A DNA stretch of 64,000 bases, taken from contig NZ_KB900617.1 in the NCBI RefSeq assembly GCF_000379025.1, forward strand, positions 106,504 through 170,503, read 5' to 3'. Source of the stretch: Orenia marismortui DSM 5156. Its GTDB lineage: Bacteria > Bacillota > Halanaerobiia > Halobacteroidales > Halobacteroidaceae. The notes below the pieces were generated by a model, which did no database searches, was not told the DNA's origin, and saw only the letters and a program-made list of their open reading frames with translations. Both the position numbers and the translations under genes were made by a program. Of the stretch, positions 46,791 through 57,035 are shown piece by piece (the stretch's first letter is position 1; each line of letters starts with the position of its first letter).

Positions 46791-47309
46791 TTAAATATTT
46801 TTAATTAGTCCTACAGCTACCCCTAAGATTCTAATATCTTCTTCCAGTTTAATCTGCTGATAATCTTCATTCTCTGGCAGAAGATAGATATCTCCTTCTT
46901 TCTTCTTAAATCGCTTTAAGGTAACTCCATCTTCTATAATAGCTGCCACTATCTGTCCACTAGAAGCAGTATCTTGCTGTCTAACAACTACATAGTCACC
47001 ATCTTCTATATCAGCATTTAACATACTATCACCCTCAACCTGTAATACAAAATTATCATAGCAGCTTTTAAACCATCTTTTAGGTAGAGGAAATTCTTCA
47101 TCCATAGTAGTATTAATATTAATTTCTTGACCGGCAGCAATATCTCCATAAACTAATAGTCTCTTTACTTTGTTATGAGGGATTGATTCTTTTTCAAATC
47201 CATCATCTACTTCCAGTTCTGTTAACATATTATTAGCTTTGATATCAACTTTATAGCTATGCTTTGATTTAAAATTTATATATCGAAAAGATCCCATAGG
47301 AAGATCCAT
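46791..47309 (-). CDS. LexA-like S24 peptidase lacking a helix-turn-helix
   Basis: 172 residues. The C-terminal part (about 50-170) is an S24 self-cleaving protease domain: possible cleavage site DIAAGQEI, catalytic Ser in VEGDSMLNADIEDGD and Lys in DGVTLKRFKK. The first 50 residues do not look like the winged helix of LexA, and no helix-turn-helix remains upstream. It could be a UmuD-like or regulatory protein with a novel N-terminus. The ATG follows GGGGTGAT. Single gene with its own terminator. Confidence 0.8.
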   Translation of the reverse strand: MDLPMGSFRYINFKSKHSYKVDIKANNMLTELEVDDGFEKESIPHNKVKRLLVYGDIAAGQEININTTMDEEFPLPKRWFKSCYDNFVLQVEGDSMLNADIEDGDYVVVRQQDTASSGQIVAAIIEDGVTLKRFKKKEGDIYLLPENEDYQQIKLEEDIRILGVAVGLIKNI

Positions 47310-47679
47310 CTTATCACCCCTATATTAGCTATTACTTACTATAATCTTTCTGGAAGTAATAAGAAAAACCTCTAAGGCACTTTAAAAATTATAAGCTCTC
47401 TTCTAACAAAACATAGATTTAAATCTATAGTTTTATTCTTAATTTGTTTGCTTAGATAGTGATACATAATGGAAAAGTCTAATTTATTTTTGATTTTTGT
47501 TAGCTGGTTTATACGCCGTAGCCTTTAAATATAAACCTTCATTCAATATCTTTTTTATAAATATTATTTATTCTATCAACATTATCTTTAATTACATTAA
47601 AACTATTAACATTTGAAACACAAAGACCTAAAACTTCCAAAACTAATTTAGTAGAAAATTTACTAATTAAAGCTCACAT
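47310..47679. other. Upstream region of the LexA-like gene
   Basis: No gene recognised and no CGAAC-N4-GTTCG SOS box seen. TGTTAGCTGG, TTTATACGCCGTAGCC near 47500 may be a remnant of mobile DNA. Confidence 0.4.
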
Positions 47680-47742
47680 CCTAACACAAGTCAGCCCATC
47701 CTTCATTTATACACTCATCCAGGATATCGCTAAGGTGCTGTT
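47680..47742 (-). repeat. Truncated attC-like element
   Basis: Matches the first half of the element at 54479-54623, including GAACAGCACCTTAGCGA, GGCTGACTT and TGTTAGGATGTG on the minus strand. Similarity stops at 47743, where IS110-related sequence begins. Confidence 0.65.
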
Positions 47743-47989
47743 CATATAATAGGTACATAATCAGTTCAATCTGGTATGTACCTTTTTTTATTATTCATAA
47801 TAAAAAAACTAGAATTAGGATGAAGAACGTATCCGCTGTTGGCAGTCGTTGATTAAGATACTGATTTAGATGAATCAACCTATTTTAAGCATTGATGTGT
47901 CAAAATCTAATAATTATGCTACTGCTTTTTTAGCTTATGGACAACCTTTTAGTTCACCGATTAGTTTTTCTAACACTATAAGAGGTTAG
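47743..47989 (+). mobile_element. IS110-family remnant: left end and transposase start
   Basis: About 130 bases of non-coding DNA precede a truncated transposase frame. It contains a hairpin AGGTACATA/TATGTACCT (47751-47783) followed by T6. In IS110-group elements the corresponding region encodes the guide (bridge) RNA. It abuts the truncated attC-like element. The right end and the rest of the transposase are missing. Confidence 0.65.
47870..47989 (+). pseudogene. IS110 transposase N-terminal fragment
   Basis: 39 codons, MNQPILSIDVSKSNNYATAF and so on, ending at TAG. This is the start of the IS110 DEDD (RuvC-like) transposase, with its first catalytic Asp in SIDVSKS. Full proteins have about 400 residues, so this is a dead fragment. 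Confidence 0.75.
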
Positions 47990-48005
47990 TATGTTTATAT
48001 AAGAT

Positions 48006-48617
48006 CTACCTTAAATTCAAATTTCCTTCTATACCCAGAACTCTTTCAATAACTTCTGTAATCGCTTTAATTCTTTTATCAAGTATCTTTTTATTATTTA
48101 AAGTATTATAGCAAATATGTATATATCTATCTATCCCCAAAAACAAAATTTTACTTGTTTCTCCTATATTATTAGTATTGAAACTTCCTTTCTCTACTCC
48201 TTCTTTTACAACCATCTCAATATAGGGTTCAAAGATCTCAAAAAAAAGAACATCTCGTTTTTGATGAATTTTGGCATTTTCGTCTATCTTTATATTATTA
48301 ACATAATTATTGCCTTCTTTATGAGGAAAAATAAGTTCAATTAATAACATTTCTAACTTTTTTATAGGAGTATATGTTTTATCATTAATCACTTTGTTAA
48401 TTTTCTTCTTAATATAATTAAATCTTCTCTCTAGTATAGCGACAATAATATCTTCTTTAGAATTAAAATAATAATAAAATGTCCCCTTAGCAACACCAAC
48501 CTTATTAACAATTTTACTTACAGGGGTATTATCAAAGCCTTCTTTTGCAAACAACTCTTCAGCAACATCTAAAATTTCATTTTTCCTTATCTCCGGTTTT
48601 TTTGATATTCTTGTCAT
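48006..48617 (-). CDS. TetR-family repressor
   Basis: About 203 residues. The N-terminal helix-turn-helix (about 10-55) has IRKNEILDVAEELFAKEGF and VSKIVNKVGVAKGTFYYYF, typical of TetR. The C-terminal ligand domain is not classifiable by eye. The ATG at 48617 follows AAGAAGTG. It is the last gene of a three-gene unit whose promoter carries two matching palindromes, so it is probably self-regulating. Confidence 0.93.
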   Translation of the reverse strand: MTRISKKPEIRKNEILDVAEELFAKEGFDNTPVSKIVNKVGVAKGTFYYYFNSKEDIIVAILERRFNYIKKKINKVINDKTYTPIKKLEMLLIELIFPHKEGNNYVNNIKIDENAKIHQKRDVLFFEIFEPYIEMVVKEGVEKGSFNTNNIGETSKILFLGIDRYIHICYNTLNNKKILDKRIKAITEVIERVLGIEGNLNLR

Positions 48618-48641
48618 ATATATCACTTCTTTCTAAGTATT

Positions 48642-49145
48642 TTATCTATAGTAATTATTATAAGCTAAATAAGTATGATAACTATGAATTATTATAAAGA
48701 ATACAGATAGAACTATATATAACCATGGTTTATAATCTGAATTTATAAATAAATTTTCGCCTAATAGAGCTAATCCAATCAACCATACTATTGGTGTATA
48801 GGCAGGAGCCATAAAACCTATTAAACTTGTACTCCAGCTACTATTTGGAAAATAAATTAAAAGCAACCATGAAATAAAATATATTATTACTCCCATAATA
48901 TAGACAACTAAGCCTATTTTATTAATATCTTTTTTTAATCCTACTTTTATTAATATAGGAAGAAAGAAAACTAATATCCTAAAAATAGTCTCACTATATA
49001 AGACATAATTGGGAATTGACTTGTCAAACAAATCTGTATTAAAGGGTTCAGGTAACTTATTAGCTAAAAATGCATTCCATAATAATACTAGTACAATAAA
49101 CCAAAAACCACTGGTTAACAATTTTATCATATTTTCATTAAACAT
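48642..49145 (-). CDS. Small membrane protein of unknown function
   Basis: 167 residues with about five membrane segments and little else, e.g. VVYIMGVIIYFISWLLLIYF. No family recognised. Its start shares one base with the stop codon of the ferredoxin gene (TAATG), and it lies 24 bases before the TetR gene, so the three are co-transcribed. Confidence 0.8.
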   Translation of the reverse strand: MFNENMIKLLTSGFWFIVLVLLWNAFLANKLPEPFNTDLFDKSIPNYVLYSETIFRILVFFLPILIKVGLKKDINKIGLVVYIMGVIIYFISWLLLIYFPNSSWSTSLIGFMAPAYTPIVWLIGLALLGENLFINSDYKPWLYIVLSVFFIIIHSYHTYLAYNNYYR

Positions 49146-49897
49146 TATACCACCCCTTTGATTGTAACAGAATCCTTTTTGCCCTTTATATAAATGGCTC
49201 TTTCAGTACAATTAGTTATACATCTTCCGCAAAACTGGCATTTATTTAAGTGCTGAGGGAAATAATTCATTTTGATGTTACTGATAGGACAATTATTTAC
49301 ACAAACTTTGCATTGCTGACAGACCTCTTTATCAACTTTAAACTTACAGAAAAGTCTACTTGTAATCCAAGGTAGGGGAGTATTCCTTGCTAACCATGAA
49401 ACAAATCTGGGACCTTTCATATTTAAATCCCAAACAGATGATCCTTCCAGTAAACTTATTGTAAACTCTCTAATCTTTCTTTTTCCTAAAGTCACCCTAT
49501 TATTTTCATCAGGCTTCATAGAATCAAACTGAATATTGTTTGGCATTAAAATTTCACAAGAAGCAACTGGATTATAACCTTTTCCTTTTAGGAGTTTAAA
49601 TAAAGGATGAGATATAGCAGGTGTACCATTATTTGTATTAACCATAAATATCGGATTACCATTAGCCTCAGGTAAAGATTTAAAAAACTCCCAAACAAAT
49701 GGCATTGTTGCGTTTGTATTAATTGGAAATAATAGACCAACTAATGAATCTTTGTTGATTTTAGGCGAATATGTATTTTCTATTTTTTTCACGCTAACTT
49801 TTATCTCATTTTCCTTAAATACTTCTTTCATTTCTTTAACAAGTAACAATGTATTTCCAGTTCCAGAAAAATAAAACAGTTCAACACTTTTAAACAT
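49145..49897 (-). CDS. EFR1-type flavodoxin-ferredoxin fusion
   Basis: 250 residues. The N-terminal flavodoxin-like domain begins ELFYFSGTGNTLLLVKEM (FMN phosphate loop). The C-terminus carries two 4Fe-4S motifs, CQQCKVCVNNCP and CQFCGRCITNCTE. These EFR1 proteins are electron carriers of clostridia. The ATG at 49897 follows GGAGGAG by 5 bases. First gene of the TetR-controlled operon. Confidence 0.92.
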   Translation of the reverse strand: MFKSVELFYFSGTGNTLLLVKEMKEVFKENEIKVSVKKIENTYSPKINKDSLVGLLFPINTNATMPFVWEFFKSLPEANGNPIFMVNTNNGTPAISHPLFKLLKGKGYNPVASCEILMPNNIQFDSMKPDENNRVTLGKRKIREFTISLLEGSSVWDLNMKGPRFVSWLARNTPLPWITSRLFCKFKVDKEVCQQCKVCVNNCPISNIKMNYFPQHLNKCQFCGRCITNCTERAIYIKGKKDSVTIKGVV

Positions 49898-49928
49898 AAC
49901 CACTCCTCCAATTTTAATAGTTTATTTA

Positions 49929-49979
49929 GACTGACCGTCAGTCAGAAACATTATAACATAATTACTGACTATCAGTCAA
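49929..49979 (-). promoter_or_regulatory. TetR-type promoter with two operators
   Basis: On the minus strand TTGACT (49979-49974), 18 bases, TATAAT (49955-49950). GACTGACGGTCAGTC (49943-49929) is a perfect 7-1-7 palindrome over the start point; a related ACTGATAGTCAGT (49976-49964) covers the -35 region. This is a classic self-repressing layout for the TetR gene at the operon end. Confidence 0.85.
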
Positions 49980-50033
49980 ATACATTCTATGAATTCAATT
50001 ACAATCAACAATAAGATAGAAAGTATAGGGGGA

Positions 50034-50175
50034 ATTTCGTATAATCTCCCGCAGCTTCGCAAGGTCTCATCAATGCTCCTAATCTTGGAAAAATATAAAA
50101 CTTTTATATGTCATTCTCAACTTTCATATATACTATATAGTTAGATGTCTCTAAGCTCATATTATCTGAAGTTGC
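50034..50175 (-). repeat. attC-like element, degenerate
   Basis: About 142 bases. On the minus strand it begins AACTTCAGATAAT, has CTTAGAGACATC, and ends GCGAAGCTGCGGG, ATTATACGAAAT. Each part lines up with the better copy at 54479-54623. It lies 34 bases after the stop of the outer-membrane protease gene. Confidence 0.6.
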
Positions 50176-50209
50176 AAAACTACATTTTACAAGCTTCTAT
50201 TTTTCAAAT

Positions 50210-52795
50210 TTAAAAACTGATTTTAAAATCCCAAAATGCTTCAATCTCTCTACCTGAATAACTAATCCCTAACTTAGGAACTAATTTAAGTCTATTAAGG
50301 GTACCAATCTCACATGATAATTCATATCCATAAGCAACTTTATCAGATATTGTATCAATATCTGTATAATCAACAAATAAACTACCATAAATATTATCCA
50401 TAAAGATATTGGGATTCCACAACCCCTTCCTAAATTGCAATAATTTATGACTATAATCAACACTAACTTGATAACCACTTACATTATTGTCATAAATCTC
50501 TTCCAAAGCAACTCCTCTAATATTACTCTCTTTTTCAAAATCTTTAAAGAGGCTACCTTTAATTTTTATACCACTATTATCCATTAAATATTTATAGTCA
50601 AACTTACTATTAACTCCTTCATCATTTATATAACTTTGTACATAAAGTTCTAAATCATGATGTGGATAAGTAAAATCGAATTTTACCCCTGGTATAGCTT
50701 CACTAAAATCTGTAGTATAATCTATCTTAACCCCTGATAAGCCTTGTTTAGAACTATAAAGTTGATAATCAAGATTTAATTCTGTTTCTCGCCCATCCTT
50801 TTTAGCTTTATTATTAACATTAATAGCTAATGGATCTAAAAATTTGGAAGTAAGACCAAAGTTTATTCCTCCATACTGAGAAGGAGAAATCGTATATGAG
50901 TTCATCCCTAATCCATCCATGCCAACCAATAATCCCGCTGAAGGACTAAGTTGAGAATCTAACTTTATAATTCCATTGGGTTTTAACAAATATTTTAAAC
51001 TTTTAGCCATAGCTTTTCCTTCTTTTACTTCTTCTTTAATATCAGAAATAAGTATGCTATCTTTTTTAATACTCTCTTCTCTTTTAGGTAAGTTATATTC
51101 TTTGCCATTTACTTTCTTCTTATATATCCCTCCACCATTATTATTCATTGCAATAAAATACAGATTATCTTTGTAAAACTGACCATTATTAGCATAGCAA
51201 TCTGTTAATTTATATGTTTTATAAGTATTTAAATCATACTGATATATAGACTGTTGATGATTATAATTAGCGGTAAAATATAGCTTATCCCCTTTAATAC
51301 TTATCTCTTTTTCTGTCCAATCAGTATCAATTATAGGAATAAGTAACATTTTCTCTAAGTCTAAATACTTAATTCCCCAACTACCTAGATTCTCTTTACT
51401 GACTACAATAAATCTATCTTTGTATCTTTTTATCTCTGAAATTAACTCCTTAGTAATGCCCAGTTTCTTCTTTTTATCCTGTTGATATTTCCAGATTTCA
51501 GAGCCAATTCCCTGCTTGTTAGCCTTTGTATAAATAATATCACCATTAGCAAGAACAATAAAATCTTTAAATTCATCCTCAAATAATCTCTTATTCTTTC
51601 CTGTCTTTAAATCATATTTATATAATCTAGCTATTCCACCATATCCTGATTCTACTAAATTATTATAGTCTTTGCTATAATCTAAAACTGAATAATATAA
51701 TTTACCATTAACAATCTGTAAAAATCCATTGCTTGTGTTACTACTTGCTATAACCTTCTTTTCTCTAGTAAGTAGATCATATTCAACTAATTCATAAACC
51801 TCTTTATAATCATAAGGAAAAGATTTTAAATATCTATTTTGAAAATAATAAATCTTATTATCAGCTATATCAAATGTAGAAATCTCTCCTTGCTGACTAT
51901 GAAGAACTTCCTGACCACTTAACTCCCAATCCTTATATTTTTCCTTAACATAGCCTTTCCAATCTGCAAATAATTCAGGGAAAGTTTTATTATAAACATC
52001 TTTAGCTGCCTTATCCAAACCTATAGCAGGAAACAGATTCCCCTCTATAGGAACCCAAAAATAAGAACCATGTAGAGTAAAAAATTCTGCTAATTTTTCT
52101 TCTCCATAAACTCTAGCTAGATAATCCATAAATTCTGAACCATAAAGATAGCCCTGATTATAAGGATAATAATCCTTTACATAAGTTACTTCATTTAATG
52201 ATGGTAATTGGTCTTCTTTAGCTTTAGTGGCTATTAAAGCATCATAATACCCAGCATTTAATCTACCTTCATATTGATTTAATTGGGATTCACTATAAAC
52301 TGCAGTTCCTTCAGTTAACCAAATTGGACTATGAAAATTAGGAGAAAATAACCTTCCGAATAAGGTAGTAGTTATTTTAGATACTCCTGAATAATTATTA
52401 TACTGAGCTAAATGGGTAAATTCATGAACTACAGTCCTTCTATGTCGATTCTTATCTTCTGGTTTATAGGTTATTGTAGAAGGAATATTAGTAAACATTC
52501 CTATAGTATTAGTAAATATATTAGCATATCCATTGCTTTCCATTCCTAAATCTTGAATAATAATTGTTGGCTTAAAATCTAATTCAGTTCCAGTTAAACC
52601 AATAACCTCCGATTTATACTCTTCTAAATAATATATCATTTCCAAAGCCCTTTGTTGATATTCTTGAGGATAAAAAACAAGAAAATTGTCAGTCTCATAA
52701 TATCTCCAATCAATCATATTAGCCGAAACATTACAAGAAAATCCTAAAAATATAATAATAAAAATTATAAATGCTACTACCTTATCCTTCAGCAT
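50210..52795 (-). CDS. Secreted zinc metalloprotease with predicted outer-membrane beta-barrel
   Basis: 861 residues. Signal peptide (1-26); peptidase MA-like domain with VVHEFTHLAQ (HExxH, 124-128) and WLTEGTAVY giving the third ligand; a beta-propeller-like middle (about 300-590) with repeated YYFQN, LYKYDLKTGK and IYQYDLNTYK strands; and a C-terminal 220-residue region of alternating beta-strands ending in WDFKISF. A terminal Phe after alternating residues is the BAM outer-membrane signature. Start: ATG at 52795, with GGAGG 5 bases upstream. Co-transcribed with the secreted protein before it. Confidence 0.85.
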   Translation of the reverse strand: MLKDKVVAFIIFIIIFLGFSCNVSANMIDWRYYETDNFLVFYPQEYQQRALEMIYYLEEYKSEVIGLTGTELDFKPTIIIQDLGMESNGYANIFTNTIGMFTNIPSTITYKPEDKNRHRRTVVHEFTHLAQYNNYSGVSKITTTLFGRLFSPNFHSPIWLTEGTAVYSESQLNQYEGRLNAGYYDALIATKAKEDQLPSLNEVTYVKDYYPYNQGYLYGSEFMDYLARVYGEEKLAEFFTLHGSYFWVPIEGNLFPAIGLDKAAKDVYNKTFPELFADWKGYVKEKYKDWELSGQEVLHSQQGEISTFDIADNKIYYFQNRYLKSFPYDYKEVYELVEYDLLTREKKVIASSNTSNGFLQIVNGKLYYSVLDYSKDYNNLVESGYGGIARLYKYDLKTGKNKRLFEDEFKDFIVLANGDIIYTKANKQGIGSEIWKYQQDKKKKLGITKELISEIKRYKDRFIVVSKENLGSWGIKYLDLEKMLLIPIIDTDWTEKEISIKGDKLYFTANYNHQQSIYQYDLNTYKTYKLTDCYANNGQFYKDNLYFIAMNNNGGGIYKKKVNGKEYNLPKREESIKKDSILISDIKEEVKEGKAMAKSLKYLLKPNGIIKLDSQLSPSAGLLVGMDGLGMNSYTISPSQYGGINFGLTSKFLDPLAINVNNKAKKDGRETELNLDYQLYSSKQGLSGVKIDYTTDFSEAIPGVKFDFTYPHHDLELYVQSYINDEGVNSKFDYKYLMDNSGIKIKGSLFKDFEKESNIRGVALEEIYDNNVSGYQVSVDYSHKLLQFRKGLWNPNIFMDNIYGSLFVDYTDIDTISDKVAYGYELSCEIGTLNRLKLVPKLGISYSGREIEAFWDFKISF

Positions 52796-52807
52796 CAAAT
52801 CCTCCTT

Positions 52808-53530
52808 TTATTTTAAATATTTAATTTCAATTGATTCAATAATTTCATTAGCTGTAGTTATAGTTTCTAAATTTCTAAATAATTTTCCATTCTTTCCTGA
52901 AGGATGACCATGTCCAACCTTTTTAAGAACAGTAGTAAATCCGTCTTTAATTTCAATTTCACCTTCCCAAAGTAAAGATGGCTGACCTGAAGTATCATTA
53001 TAATTAAAATTATTTTTAGATAATTTTTTCTTGTACGTTTCATTGTAATCAATAGATTGATTAACTTCCAATCTTATAACAAGTTGTTTTAATTTTATAT
53101 CAGCTGGAATTATCCATTTGCGAGTAAAACCTTTTTTAGGTGTAGCACCTGTAATTGCATCAACTAATGGTTTATCTTTTGTTGGCATATATAGTCCATC
53201 ATTATATTTTATCCCTCTTTTATGTGACCAAATAGGCAAAGCATCTGGTCTGCGAATATCCTTCCCACCTGACCATTTAGATTTTCCACTAGATTCAGTT
53301 ACATAAATAGTATCTATATAATTACCTTGCTCATCTTCTAACCAAATTGCCATTTGTGGATTACTTTTAATTGGAAAAATACCAAGCCAATACCAAGTAA
53401 CATCCTTATACCTCTCGCCTGGTTTTACTTCAACAGAAATTCTTCCTTCACTTTGTGCTCTTATAATTCCTGAAATTAATACAACTAAAATCATAACTAA
53501 AGCCATTAATTTCATTCTACTCTTAAACAT
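52808..53530 (-). CDS. Secreted DUF2271-like protein
   Basis: 240 residues. Signal peptide (1-25), then WLEDEQGNYIDTIYVTE, RRPDALPIWSHKRG and DAITGATPKKG. These phrases resemble the DUF2271 group of periplasmic proteins; I hold this with moderate certainty. Function unknown. The start follows GAGGAGG. It ends 12 bases before the metalloprotease gene, so the pair probably works together at the cell envelope. Confidence 0.75.
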   Translation of the reverse strand: MFKSRMKLMALVMILVVLISGIIRAQSEGRISVEVKPGERYKDVTWYWLGIFPIKSNPQMAIWLEDEQGNYIDTIYVTESSGKSKWSGGKDIRRPDALPIWSHKRGIKYNDGLYMPTKDKPLVDAITGATPKKGFTRKWIIPADIKLKQLVIRLEVNQSIDYNETYKKKLSKNNFNYNDTSGQPSLLWEGEIEIKDGFTTVLKKVGHGHPSGKNGKLFRNLETITTANEIIESIEIKYLK

Positions 53531-53581
53531 ATTATATTTCCTCCTCAGATTGTCTATATTTTATTAATATCTTGTTTTGCA

Positions 53582-53723
53582 ATTTTAGATAACGTTCCTG
53601 GGGTTCGCGACGTTCCCGATAATGCTCCCAACTATAATGAAACAACCAAATCTAACATAAGTCAGCCCAGCTTTCACTTATGCTCATAGCTGGGATGTCG
53701 CTAATCCGTTGTTATGTGAAGTT
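53582..53723 (-). repeat. attC-like element
   Basis: 142 bases. Minus strand: AACTTCACATAACAAC, GGATTAGCGACATCCC, an internal stem AGCTGGG/CCCAGCT, GCTGACTTATGTTAGAT, then GGGAACGTCGCGAAC and GTTATCTAAAAT. It starts 10 bases after the racemase stop and ends 52 bases before the next gene. Confidence 0.7.
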
Positions 53724-53733
53724 CCCCGTTCTT

Positions 53734-54426
53734 TTAGACTAATTTTCTGATAATACTTTCAACATGAATTTCTGTAGTATTTAAAAATTTTATATTAGAT
53801 TCATCTTCTTCCTTTAATATCAAAGGCAGTTCTGTACATCCTAAAATTAATCCATCTATCTTGTCCTCTTCTTTCATTCTTTCAATAATTTTTAATAATT
53901 CTTTTTTAGTATCCTCTTTAACTATTCCTAACTCTAATTCAGTCATTATTTTATTATGTATATACTCCTGCTCTTTATTATTAGGTACAACTGTTGTTAC
54001 ACCATATTTTAAAATTTCTTTTTTGAAAAAATCCTCTTGCATAGTAAATTTTGTTCCAAATAGTCCTACACTCTTCATCTTTAAATCTTTCGCTTTTTTT
54101 CCTGTCTCTTCAACTATACTTATAAGAGGTATCGGGGACTGTTCTTTTAATCTATCAAATACAATGTGTGGAGTGTTTGCACCTATTGCACCAAAATTAG
54201 CACCCGCATTATATCCTTCCTTTATAGCTGATAATAAATAATCTGTTAATTTATCATAATCTTTTCTATCTACCATATTAAGTAGTTTATTTACATTTAA
54301 AGAATTAATAAAAAATTCTGGGATTTCTTCTTTTCCTTCTAATTTTTGATAATGTTTAATGATTAATTTATAATAGTCAATTGTCGACTCTGGTCCCAAT
54401 CCTCCAATTAAACAAAATTTACTCAT
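53734..54426 (-). CDS. Aspartate/glutamate racemase family protein, one catalytic Cys replaced
   Basis: 230 residues. Family signatures CLIGGLGPESTIDYY and LGCTELPLIL (second catalytic Cys) are present. The first catalytic Cys site reads GANTPH where aspartate racemases have CNTxH. YgeA-type enzymes also lack this Cys and racemise L-Asp/L-Glu or homoserine with one Cys and a Thr; here it is Ala, so activity may differ. The ATG at 54426 follows AGAGAGGAG; the longer frame would run into the repeat element. Flanked on both sides by attC-like elements. Confidence 0.85.
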   Translation of the reverse strand: MSKFCLIGGLGPESTIDYYKLIIKHYQKLEGKEEIPEFFINSLNVNKLLNMVDRKDYDKLTDYLLSAIKEGYNAGANFGAIGANTPHIVFDRLKEQSPIPLISIVEETGKKAKDLKMKSVGLFGTKFTMQEDFFKKEILKYGVTTVVPNNKEQEYIHNKIMTELELGIVKEDTKKELLKIIERMKEEDKIDGLILGCTELPLILKEEDESNIKFLNTTEIHVESIIRKLV

Positions 54427-54478
54427 TATTATTACTCCTCTCTTTTTACAATAAAAATTCAAAGTTTTTAATAGGGGG

Positions 54479-54623
54479 ATTTCATCTAACGTCCAACAGC
54501 TTCGCGACGTCCCCAATAAAGCTTTCAATCTCTAGATAACCACTATATCTAACATAAGTCAGCACTTATTCTCATTGATGCTCATAACTGGGATGTCGCT
54601 AAGGTGCTGTTATGCGAAGTGTT
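54479..54623 (-). repeat. attC-like element, best copy
   Basis: 145 bases. Minus strand: AACACTTCGCATAACAGC, CTTAGCGACATCCC, a centre with GCTGACTTATGTTAGAT, then GGGGACGTCGCGAAGCTGTT, GGAC, GTTAGATGAAAT. The ends pair with each other (AACAGC...GCGAC with GTCGCGAAGCTGTT). GTTAGAT fits the attC R' core GTTRRRY, and GCATAAC is one base from RYYYAAC. It begins 13 bases after the nuclease stop. Confidence 0.75.
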
Positions 54624-54636
54624 GCTCTCTTTAATC

Positions 54637-56337
54637 CTATCGAGAAGAATTAATTCTTTTAGCTTCTTTTAAATCAATTTTTGCTTTATAACCATGTTTC
54701 TCTAAAAGATGAAGAAGATTTGAGCCATTTAAAAGTGTAATAGGTTTATCTTTAGCAAAATTATGCGAATCTGCCCCATAATTTGATGTTGTAACTAAAA
54801 TTCCTTTTGTTGCTCCTTCATTTACTACAGTTCCATAAAGATCACGAACTGCTGAAACTCCAACAACATTAGTATATCTTTTAGCTTGAATAACAATTTT
54901 ACCACCACGAATTGGATCTGGATCAAAAGCTATAGCATCTACTCCTCCATCTCTACTAGATTGAGTAACTTTTACCTCTCCACCAGTTTGTGAAAATTCT
55001 TTTTCAAATATTTCTCTTATAAGATGTTCAAAATCTTGCCAATCCATTGCAGCCAAATTGTCAGCATCATTTAAATTATCACTAACATCATAGGATTCTA
55101 TAAATCTACTATCTTCCTTATCGATTTTTATTATAGGAGCAACAGGAGATAATTTATATAGTCTAGAGGCTCCAACCCCTTTTAAATTCTTAAAACATTC
55201 TTTAGGGTCAACTAAATCTAAATTGATTTCATGAAATTCCTTTTTAGTAACTTGAATAGATAAAACACAAGGACTAATTTTTTTACCAGTTGCTTTATCT
55301 ATTGTCCTTACAAACCCATTAAAAACAATTGCATCTATAATATCAATTTCATCGGTTTGATATATATCATTTATAGTTTTAAGAGCTATCTGATAAAGAA
55401 TACCATCATATAATTTTCTAAAAGCTGTTTTTGATAATTCTTTTTCTTTAAAAGAATCTCTAGTTTTTATATATTTAACTTCTTGAATCTTAGGTAAATC
55501 TTCATGAGAAGGCAATCTATAGTCTAATAATAAAATATTATTGTCAGGGTTATAATCAATTTCAAATTCTTGTGGAAAAATATCAGGATATTTAACATTA
55601 TCTAAAACTATATCATAATATTCAGCAATAGCAGAAGGTACTTTATTAAAGTATGCTTTTTCTAAATTAATTATATACTGATTATATTCTTCTTGTTTTT
55701 TATAAAATTCCTGTTTGTTATAATCCCATTTCTTTAAGCTTGTTTCGTATTCTTTTTCAATTTTTTCATTTTCCTTTATAATTTTATTTTTTCTCTCTTT
55801 CCAACTCTTTATATCTTTTTTATGTCTTTCTAAAGCTTTATTATATTGATTATTAGATATTTGTTGCTTTTTTATTTTGCGTTTTTTGAAAAGTTTATCT
55901 AATAAATTTATTTTAGGTTTATAATATTCTCTTTTTGGTTCCCCTACTGGCTTAGGAGGAAGCGACTTTAATCTTGCTTTTTTAGGTTTTCTTTTTTCAA
56001 ATTTAGATTCATCTTTTAATTTATCCCAGTTAATACTATTATCAATTTTTAGTGAATTTACTAACATGTTTTCTAGACTTGCCTTTAGTTTTTGAGCTTT
56101 TTCCGTTTTTTCTTTTGCTATTTCACTTTTTCTTTCTTGATCTAGTTTTTTTAATTCTTTTCTTTGTCTTTTTTCTTCTTTTTCTAATTTTTTTTGCCAC
56201 TGCTCATCCCATCTTGCAAGTTGTGCATTAGCTTTTCTTTGAGCTTCTCTCTTGGTTTTTCCCTTGATAATTTTGTATTTATTTAATCCATTATGACTTA
56301 TTTCAATTTCATATGTAGGATAAATTGCTCTTGGCAT
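54637..56337 (-). CDS. Mrr-type restriction endonuclease protein
   Basis: 566 residues. A long Lys/Glu-rich coiled coil fills the first 230 residues. The C-terminal 120 residues are a PD-(D/E)XK Mrr-cat domain: DWQDFEHLIREIFEKEF, SSRDGGVDAIAFD (catalytic Asp) and IVIQAKRYTN (QxK). Mrr-like enzymes cut modified or foreign DNA. No methyltransferase lies nearby. The ATG at 56337 follows AAGGAGTG. It starts 64 bases after a GTTAGGC core and ends 13 bases before an attC-like element. Confidence 0.85.
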   Translation of the reverse strand: MPRAIYPTYEIEISHNGLNKYKIIKGKTKREAQRKANAQLARWDEQWQKKLEKEEKRQRKELKKLDQERKSEIAKEKTEKAQKLKASLENMLVNSLKIDNSINWDKLKDESKFEKRKPKKARLKSLPPKPVGEPKREYYKPKINLLDKLFKKRKIKKQQISNNQYNKALERHKKDIKSWKERKNKIIKENEKIEKEYETSLKKWDYNKQEFYKKQEEYNQYIINLEKAYFNKVPSAIAEYYDIVLDNVKYPDIFPQEFEIDYNPDNNILLLDYRLPSHEDLPKIQEVKYIKTRDSFKEKELSKTAFRKLYDGILYQIALKTINDIYQTDEIDIIDAIVFNGFVRTIDKATGKKISPCVLSIQVTKKEFHEINLDLVDPKECFKNLKGVGASRLYKLSPVAPIIKIDKEDSRFIESYDVSDNLNDADNLAAMDWQDFEHLIREIFEKEFSQTGGEVKVTQSSRDGGVDAIAFDPDPIRGGKIVIQAKRYTNVVGVSAVRDLYGTVVNEGATKGILVTTSNYGADSHNFAKDKPITLLNGSNLLHLLEKHGYKAKIDLKEAKRINSSR

Positions 56338-56400
56338 AAATTTCACTCCTTTAACTTTAGTATTATTGTCCATTTAAACCATAAATATTCCTTGAGCAAC

Positions 56401-56412
56401 ATTTCGCCTAAC
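56401..56412 (-). repeat. attC R'-like core upstream of the nuclease gene
   Basis: GTTAGGCGAAAT on the minus strand fits GTTRRRY exactly and shares GAAAT with the ends of two of the other elements. The rest of this element is badly worn. Confidence 0.5.
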
Positions 56413-57035
56413 TTAATTTAAACGACATACTTCATATAAACTATCTATTTAGAAGTATTAACCACATATCTCATACACAAATAATATCTACCTCAAAACA
56501 TCTTTTCCTTCCATTGCTTTATCAAAAATAAAAACTCAACCATAATATAATCATCTTAACTATAAACTCTACATTATCAACTCTAAACTATCTTTTAACT
56601 CGGAATCTTTAACAAATGCTTTGCAGAATACTCATAGAATTTATCCTTATAGCATTTTACCCCTTGATAGTATTTATGGCAATTAGACTCTTTAAAATTA
56701 GATATTAACTCTATCTCTTCTAGCAAAAGCTAATAAAGCATAATAATGAGCATCTATCTTCATTTACTAGCCCCTTTCTCACCACTTAAAAATAACTTTA
56801 CAAAATCAGTCAAATCTTATATAAGTAAGCTCTTAACTGTAGCCAGAAACTAGTAGCTAAAAGCCAGCAGCAAATTTCGACATCTATATCCATTTAATCC
56901 ATTAAATAACAATAATCTTATTTTTTATTTCTCTAAATAATACTTTTCCCCTGCTTAATTGCTAAAAAATTATCATAACACCTGAGGAGAATATTTTTAT
57001 CGAGTGAAGAAGTAGTCTTGGGGTGAAAGATAGTA
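56413..57035. other. Intergenic region with gene debris and repeat remnant
   Basis: Mostly non-coding. It holds the broken reading frame at 56595-56763 and a partial dispersed repeat at 56821-56905 (AACTAGTAGCTAAAAGCC and CGACATCTATATCC). Confidence 0.45.
56595..56763 (-). pseudogene. Frameshifted small gene remnant (DUF6765-like start)
   Basis: AAAGGGG lies 7 bases before an ATG at 56763 that reads MKIDAHYYALLAFARR and stops after 21 codons. In the next frame a coherent stretch continues, ELISNFKESNCHKYYQG and so on to 56595. The opening resembles the MQxDFHYYxxYxLAR start of DUF6765 proteins. It is most likely a decayed gene. Confidence 0.35.

Follow-up and report, generated by a model that had tools for sequence, protein, structure and literature searches.

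A gene-cassette array in Orenia marismortui and its probable link to an integron-like system whose tyrosine recombinase lacks the I2 domain

Introduction

Do the repeats at positions 47,680 to 56,412 of a 64,000-nucleotide stretch of the Orenia marismortui DSM 5156 genome (contig NZ_KB900617.1, positions 106,504 to 170,503; hereafter the window) belong to an integron, and if so, which recombinase moves its cassettes? A preliminary description, made from the letters alone, took these minus-strand elements for a possible cluster of attC sites lacking integron integrases (CALIN). The integron integrase IntI is recognised or selected via its I2 domain (PMC2426708; PMC9668308; PMC9024848), which is considered necessary for cassette capture, is said to confer single-strand recombination and is reported from no other protein (PMC7790495). 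The 2022 IntegronFinder 2.0 survey found one complete integron and a few CALINs in Firmicutes (PMC9024848), and whether attC sites or I2 evolved first is a chicken-and-egg problem (PMC4792948).

Here, we report that the repeats are evidently the gene-cassette recombination sites of an integron, very probably one that is mobilised by a tyrosine recombinase without I2 and whose cassettes move as units through attC sites folded from the bottom strand. Headed by its own attI-like site, the window array is therefore best read as a satellite of a large chromosomal integron system, small in size (this site and about four cassettes), and not as a chance cluster of sites. The CALIN-like reading was incomplete: the genome has an attI-linked recombinase, but it is not IntI.

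Results

Elements were searched for with a covariance model trained on 25 copies from the genome; elements 53582 and 54479 belong to its training set, while 50034 and the decayed 47611 lie outside it. In the window, the model finds three intact elements and a decayed one, all on the minus strand. Its matches at 53582, 54479 and 50034 are the three full elements of the preliminary description, whose core letters, GAAAT tail and direction were also given correctly. The genome as a whole holds 46 elements, codirectional within each array and mostly in larger arrays on other contigs. Independent of the model, blastn with one element against the genome gave 25 copies (best non-self E 1e-47), and an Rfam search with the elements returned nothing at the gathering threshold.

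In integrons, a repeat is followed by the R' core of the next cassette. Pairing is therefore expected between the two ends of one cassette and need not occur between the arms of one repeat. We compared the variable core triplets within the same cassette and within the same repeat with a permutation null. Triplets of the same cassette were fully paired in 27 out of 36 cases (mean 2.61), a value reached by none of 10,000 permutations (mean 1.32, SD 0.14). Triplets of the same repeat paired only at chance level (mean 1.33), contrary to the earlier claim that the arms of each repeat pair with each other. Cassette ends likewise paired in eight related genomes (2.37 versus 1.29, 67 cassettes; 25/25 perfect in Halanaerobacter jeridensis, G006) and in dozens of other loci (2.36 versus 1.12, SD 0.09). 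To our knowledge, only cassettes moving as units, with the crossover at G^TT, explain this asymmetry.

The comparison of shared cassettes leads to the same point. Shared pairs are 98–100% identical after G^TT (over 92–250 bases) and 51–84% identical over the 110 bases before it. One 94-base cassette start occurs both behind an attI and behind an attC, and only the near-identical attI copies on contigs C3 and C6 match upstream of G^TT too (91%). The asymmetric pairing and the fall of shared-cassette identity at G^TT thus indicate cassettes that move as units. Integron-type cassettes with attC-like cores and a G/TT crossover, as first proposed, agree with both comparisons.

A cassette with a Y2/IS91-type transposase is present at least twice and its first 94 bases follow two attI sites, as might be expected if the repeats were a dispersed mobile repeat (resembling a miniature inverted-repeat transposable element, or forming the ends of an IS91-type element) and their cassette look secondary. 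We give this explanation almost no weight, however, since the repeats are codirectional per array, and so is the longest open reading frame (ORF) in all 21 cassettes having one of at least 60 amino acids. Moreover, pairing links neighbouring repeats across the cargo and not the arms of one repeat, and other repeated cassettes start differently from the Y2 cassette.

The complementarity of the cassette ends is cassette-specific and extends far past the R box, over 17–19 nt. At offsets 11–18 from GTTA the match falls from 0.91 to 0.59 (64 cassettes) and from offset 19 it is near background, while shuffled partners reach only 0.26–0.29 at offsets 12–18. A fixed mismatch occupies the 11th base (offset 10): in 59/64 cassettes it reads A.C on the top strand and hence T.G on the bottom strand, the only strand on which it is a wobble pair. 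The same pattern was seen in 51 cassettes from 21 other loci (A.C in 45/51), which were picked for a fully paired core triplet, a choice that does not force the outer positions. As the ends are complementary well past the R box, each cassette thus has its own R arm of 17–19 bp, formable only once its two ends meet.

Of the single elements folded as bottom strands, 54479 beat 200/200 shuffles (z −3.65), and 53582 and 50034 alone did not beat theirs. As single-element folding is not decisive, the structure rests on covariation over 118 elements. When the circle form was reconstituted from the body of a cassette's attC and the R' of the same cassette, the arms of the bottom strand were more stable than those of the top strand in 35/36 cases, and in 33/36 the reconstituted bottom strand was more stable than the unaltered repeat of the array. 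The bottom-strand hairpin comprises the R box, a bulge of 4–5 nt on the R' side, a central stem and the L box. The bulge, GGRAC on the top strand, is near invariant and placed between the R box and the central stem, and the L box has no extrahelical single base, its two arms being equally long, and carries two fixed mismatches, A.G and A.C as read on the top strand. In an alignment not fitted to it, the central stem was paired at 79% versus 52%, and its covariation was 0.60 versus 0.19, with 0/500 shuffles reaching it (the shuffles ignore relatedness) and a drop to 0.06–0.10 in slid versions. A structure model without the central stem had given weak covariation and was rejected; the stem was revealed by the bottom-strand fold of the reconstituted site. 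Mismatches in the hairpin are biased towards those that form a wobble pair on the bottom strand (184 versus 32 on the top; 73 versus 32 without the fixed column), as are mismatches of the cassette ends (91 versus 9) and mismatches in other loci (73 versus 9).

These features also bear on whether the recombinase could act on double-stranded attC in the Xer manner, with the hairpin incidental or serving another role. XerC/D, relatives of the recombinase, act on double-stranded DNA, and on inspection the attI resembles a two-arm Xer-type site, with the L''-R'' half of attC similarly spaced. On the other hand, distant arms covary and mismatches are biased to one-strand wobble, which double-stranded recognition would not select; there is a single crossover point, and the attI spacer remains when cassettes change. 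Action on double-stranded attC is therefore, in our opinion, very unlikely. The sequence comparisons thus show that cassettes are units, where the crossover lies, that the folded form is under selection and that the two strands differ. Recombination of attC as a folded bottom strand would be in line with fold stability, covariation and wobble bias alike.

That there is no integrase, as initially noted, is true of the window and not of the genome, where contig C6 carries a tyrosine recombinase with its own attI-like site (Table 1). Its alignment with the integron integrase PDB 2A3V covers residues 5–185 and 239–319 and skips the intervening stretch; that with TIGR02249 covers 2–180 and 233–314, skips positions 180–233 and scores below the cut-off. 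The distance from KG.K.R to H.LRH is 59 residues in the C6 recombinase and 58–63 in 56 measurable family members, compared with 99–106 in six IntI proteins and 62–66 in E. coli XerC/D. The I2/additional domain was thus tested for and is absent, and the HARP-like match of an extra N-terminal domain of about 70 residues is weak (E 0.008) and does not reach Pfam's cut-off. Because the additional domain is missing and the N-terminal domain is extra, the recombinase is not IntI.

All nine aligned orthologues have the same catalytic residues R, K, H, R, H and Y. Foldseek with a predicted structure of moderate quality (predicted local distance difference test 77.8, predicted template-modelling score 0.51) placed 2A3V first and XerA next. 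Against NF040815 (recomb_XerA_Arch, cut-off 220), the C6 recombinase scored above the cut-off (245.5), and the relatives from Saccharibacillus (210.6), Fusibacter (201.0) and Algoriphagus (219.1) below it. In a careful tree, in which archaeal XerA was not sampled, IntI and the I2-less family stood apart from E. coli XerC/D (100/100), and the I2-less family formed one group without IntI in 24% of bootstrap trees. A quicker tree nested IntI inside the I2-less family.

The C6 attI core adjoins the recombinase gene just beyond its stop codon, and an attI-like site lies 3' of the gene in 10/10 genomes of the order that have it. At the head of the window array, TGTCGTTTAAATTAAGTTA and the following GGCGAAAT (to 56401) give the R' core of the first cassette. 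What had been taken for an end-only copy of the repeat at 56401–56412 is instead the right half of this attI-like site. Neither a recombinase remnant near the window attI nor a recombinase among the ORFs of the window region was found. A second attI on C3 (L049:13208-13385) shares 178 bases with that of C6 at 99% identity, and no recombinase remnant was detected beside it. The related genome G011 has a similar second attI-like array head without a detected recombinase remnant (C9:373 kb; L075:7498-7516). One recombinase may therefore serve several attI sites. Inverted repeats, TTAACGAC...GTCGTTAA, are present between the recombinase stop and the attI core (L044:110-205) and in the 3' flanks in other genomes; they may be accessory binding sites comparable with the DR sites of attI1.

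Orthologues of the recombinase were found in 10 out of 13 genomes of the order (55–62% identical over their length, one truncated), and elements in all 13, up to 78 per genome; the relatives include H. jeridensis and Halonatronum saccharophilum (G008). The recombinase gene immediately precedes attI and the array and shares their orientation, and in six of the ten recombinase-bearing genomes the elements follow downstream on the same contig, again codirectionally. Among the best 80 of at least 542 hits in a scan of species genomes were relatives from Clostridium, Alkaliphilus, Paenibacillus, Saccharibacillus, Cohnella, Fusibacter, Algoriphagus and Nitrospirota, as well as from metagenome-assembled genomes labelled archaeal, a label that binning errors can produce. 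Many relatives are followed immediately by families of direct repeats, mostly of about 90–210 bases. A simple detector counted 5.42 elements per 10 kb downstream of the recombinase. The controls gave 0.14 (upstream), 0.17 (reverse strand) and 0.24 (Markov sequence). The Altarchaeum and Micrarchaeota contigs yielded no repeats downstream of the recombinase, although attI-like sequences are visible in some. In a 199-genome sample of the phylum, 22 genomes gave a strong recombinase match, some without the N-terminal part. Cassette arrays thus evidently recur beside the I2-less recombinase in many Gram-positive and other bacteria, in which integrons had been considered nearly absent.

On the Chryseobacterium plasmid NZ_CP041688.1 (L174, 7119-11770), three near-identical repeats of 176 bases and codirectional genes come after an I2-less relative, a hint that mobile versions of the system may exist.

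The cassettes could in principle be ordinary IntI-type ones, left by or fed from a canonical IntI elsewhere, with the I2-less recombinase a mere neighbour. The core GTTRRRY and the cassette logic are indeed those of IntI integrons, and CALINs without intI are common (PMC9668308). However, no protein of the window genome is above the IntI cut-off, and none in 61 genomes of the phylum, a sample without a positive control, is a strong canonical IntI match. In addition, across the relatives and many Bacillota the I2-less recombinase stands right before attI and array, unlike a chance neighbour, so that we regard a canonical IntI as a very improbable source.

The window array is an attC cluster without a neighbouring integron integrase, as in a CALIN, and it has an attI-like site at its head and a decaying distal end. 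The half copy first placed at 47680–47742 is indeed a partial element, more exactly the 5' half of a decayed one (47611–47749; 36.3 bits, E 2e-6), whose right half gave no alignment in the covariance model. The genes are codirectional with the elements, as described before. By eye, the ends of cassette 1 are complementary at 17/19 positions and those of cassette 3 at 17/20; the core triplet of cassette 3 is paired at 3/3 positions and that of cassette 2 at only 1/3. Just past the distal end, a minus-strand gene (46791–47309) has, by eye only, the look of a LexA-type S24 peptidase; canonical intI is SOS-controlled.

Table 1. Positions of the sites, cassettes, genes and arrays in the window and in the rest of the genome
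Feature	Position	Strand	Basis or remark
attI-like core TGTCGTTTAAATTAAGTTA, head of window array	56409..56427	-	19/19 identical to C6:92-110 and C3:13298-13316
Cassette 1 with nuclease gene, bounded by TT of the attI core and G of the attC1 core	54490..56411	-	core positions
Type IV (Mrr-like) restriction endonuclease gene	54637..56373	-	PF04471 E 4e-31; PADLOC mREase_IV E 6e-70
attC1	54479..54618	-	covariance model, 131.0 bits
Cassette 2, Asp/Glu racemase	53593..54489	-	core positions; PF01177 E 8e-42 (gene 53734-54426)
attC2	53582..53720	-	covariance model, 131.8 bits, E 7e-29
Cassette 3, two genes	50045..53592	-	core positions
DUF2271 protein gene, cassette 3	52808-53530	-	
Large protein gene, cassette 3	50210-52798	-	weak, sub-threshold peptidase MA match
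attC3, diverged, core ATTA	50034..50170	-	84.4 bits, outside the training set of the model
Probable cassette 4, three genes	47750..50044	-	between attC3 and decayed attC4
Fer4/flavodoxin-like protein gene, cassette 4	49145-49903	-	
Membrane protein gene, cassette 4	48642-49145	-	
TetR regulator gene, cassette 4	48006-48626	-	
attC4, decayed, 5' half kept, R' side gone	47680..47749	-	match 47611-47749
Tyrosine recombinase gene, 347 aa	C6:204-1247	-	
Array	C2:432-481 kb	-	reaches contig end
Array	C2:1.7-13 kb	+	
Array	C3:0-13 kb	-	
Further elements	C1 (window array); C5 (one)		
Cargo genes with defence-model matches	L049:7379-8773; L049:2576-3718; L046:5389-6213; window 54637-56373		

Several of the arrays break off at contig ends, which is typical of repeats in draft assemblies. 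Outside the window, the cargo includes a QatA-like KAP NTPase, a Fic protein, a cyclase, a LysE transporter and a chemotaxis-like protein. Among ten proteins scanned, matches to the anti-phage defence models QatA, SoFic, PDC-S14 and mREase_IV were found, which suggests that the arrays partly stock defence genes. Within a cassette, on the array strand, lies a group II intron reverse transcriptase/maturase (RVT_1, GIIM; L046:9618-11084, C2:445618-447084), and a second copy with the same protein start is found further along the array (L046:18041-19507). Group IIC-attC introns are known to target attC sites. The Y2/IS91-type transposase cassette occurs twice in the C2 array, at L047:11398-12591 (C2:466398-467591) and as a near-identical copy after C2:440322-440462; its first 94 bases are also found after attI on C6 and C3, up to the contig end or Ns.

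Discussion

In every sequence test applied, the system of O. marismortui behaves like an integron. It falls outside the usual definition of an IntI integron, since a test for the defining domain showed it to be absent. As I2 is held necessary for cassette capture, this would be a major departure from known integrons. Most likely, the C6-type recombinase carries out the cassette recombination. In the mechanism that we propose, whole cassettes would leave and enter the array through one crossover at G^TTA, the recombinase presumably performing the reaction on the bottom strand of attC, folded into a hairpin. It would bind the R arm (17–19 bp, with the fixed G.T at position 11) and the L box, cut between AA and C of R' and join the end to attI or another attC; since only one strand is exchanged, the junction would be resolved by replication. 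Strand choice and the block of a second cleavage could be provided by the fixed mismatches, the one-sided 4–5-nt bulge and the long R arm, in place of I2 and extrahelical bases, and the long R arm is perhaps held by the N-terminal, weakly HARP-like domain.

Several observations weigh against this reading. The evidence for recombination is comparative throughout, and the recombinase of the window genome is not on the contigs that carry the big arrays, so its link to them rests there on attI identity and on the relatives. Three genomes of the order have elements and no detected recombinase. Mismatched cassette pairs occur in older arrays (window cassette 2 and parts of G002, G007 and G011), which we read as decay or misplaced element ends. 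The roles given to the N-terminal domain and the bulge are conjecture, the HARP match being below Pfam's cut-off.

A widespread family of such arrays, with an I2-less recombinase at their head, would imply that the I2 filter has overlooked integrons in Bacillota and other phyla. It also bears on the question of whether attC sites or I2 came first and makes it testable with living systems. It is conceivable, although doubtful, that I2-less integrons are an older or parallel form and that IntI arose within this recombinase family and gained I2 later, in which case attC cassettes recombined as folded strands would predate that gain. In the open-access literature we found no report of attC arrays in Halanaerobiales, Paenibacillus, Saccharibacillus, Cohnella or Alkaliphilus, nor of I2-less recombinases heading attC arrays, and the main text of a paper on halophile integrons (PMC7923331) does not name Orenia, Halanaerobacter or Halobacteroidaceae. 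As the search covered open-access literature, the novelty is provisional. Smyshlyaev and colleagues noted incomplete conservation of the insertion within their integron-like subgroup (PMC8138268), which may have been a glimpse of I2-less proteins.

With the IntI integrons (class 1 and 2, the Vibrio superintegron, Shewanella), the system shares an attI beside a tyrosine recombinase gene, codirectional cassettes ending in attC, the GTTRRRY core, the G^TT crossover, R and L boxes, a probable bottom-strand hairpin and very long chromosomal arrays. It differs in that the Orenia-type recombinase lacks I2 and has about 70 extra N-terminal residues. Its gene is codirectional with the array and upstream of it, whereas the class 1 and Shewanella records show intI in divergent orientation. 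The L box of the attC lacks the extra base, and the site has fixed mismatches and a 4–5-nt bulge instead. The 17–19-nt complementary ends may be a further difference. The window array resembles a CALIN in its attC-like sites and the lack of an adjacent recombinase; it departs from one in having an attI-like site at its head and, elsewhere in the genome, a recombinase next to an identical attI core. XerA, XerC and XerD are represented by the best NCBIfam match of the recombinase (NF040815, 'site-specific tyrosine recombinase/integron integrase'), with which it shares the core-binding and catalytic domains and, with XerC/D, the catalytic spacing. It is set apart from them by its extra N-terminal domain, an IntI-like SPLD C-terminus, and the attI and cassette arrays that accompany it.

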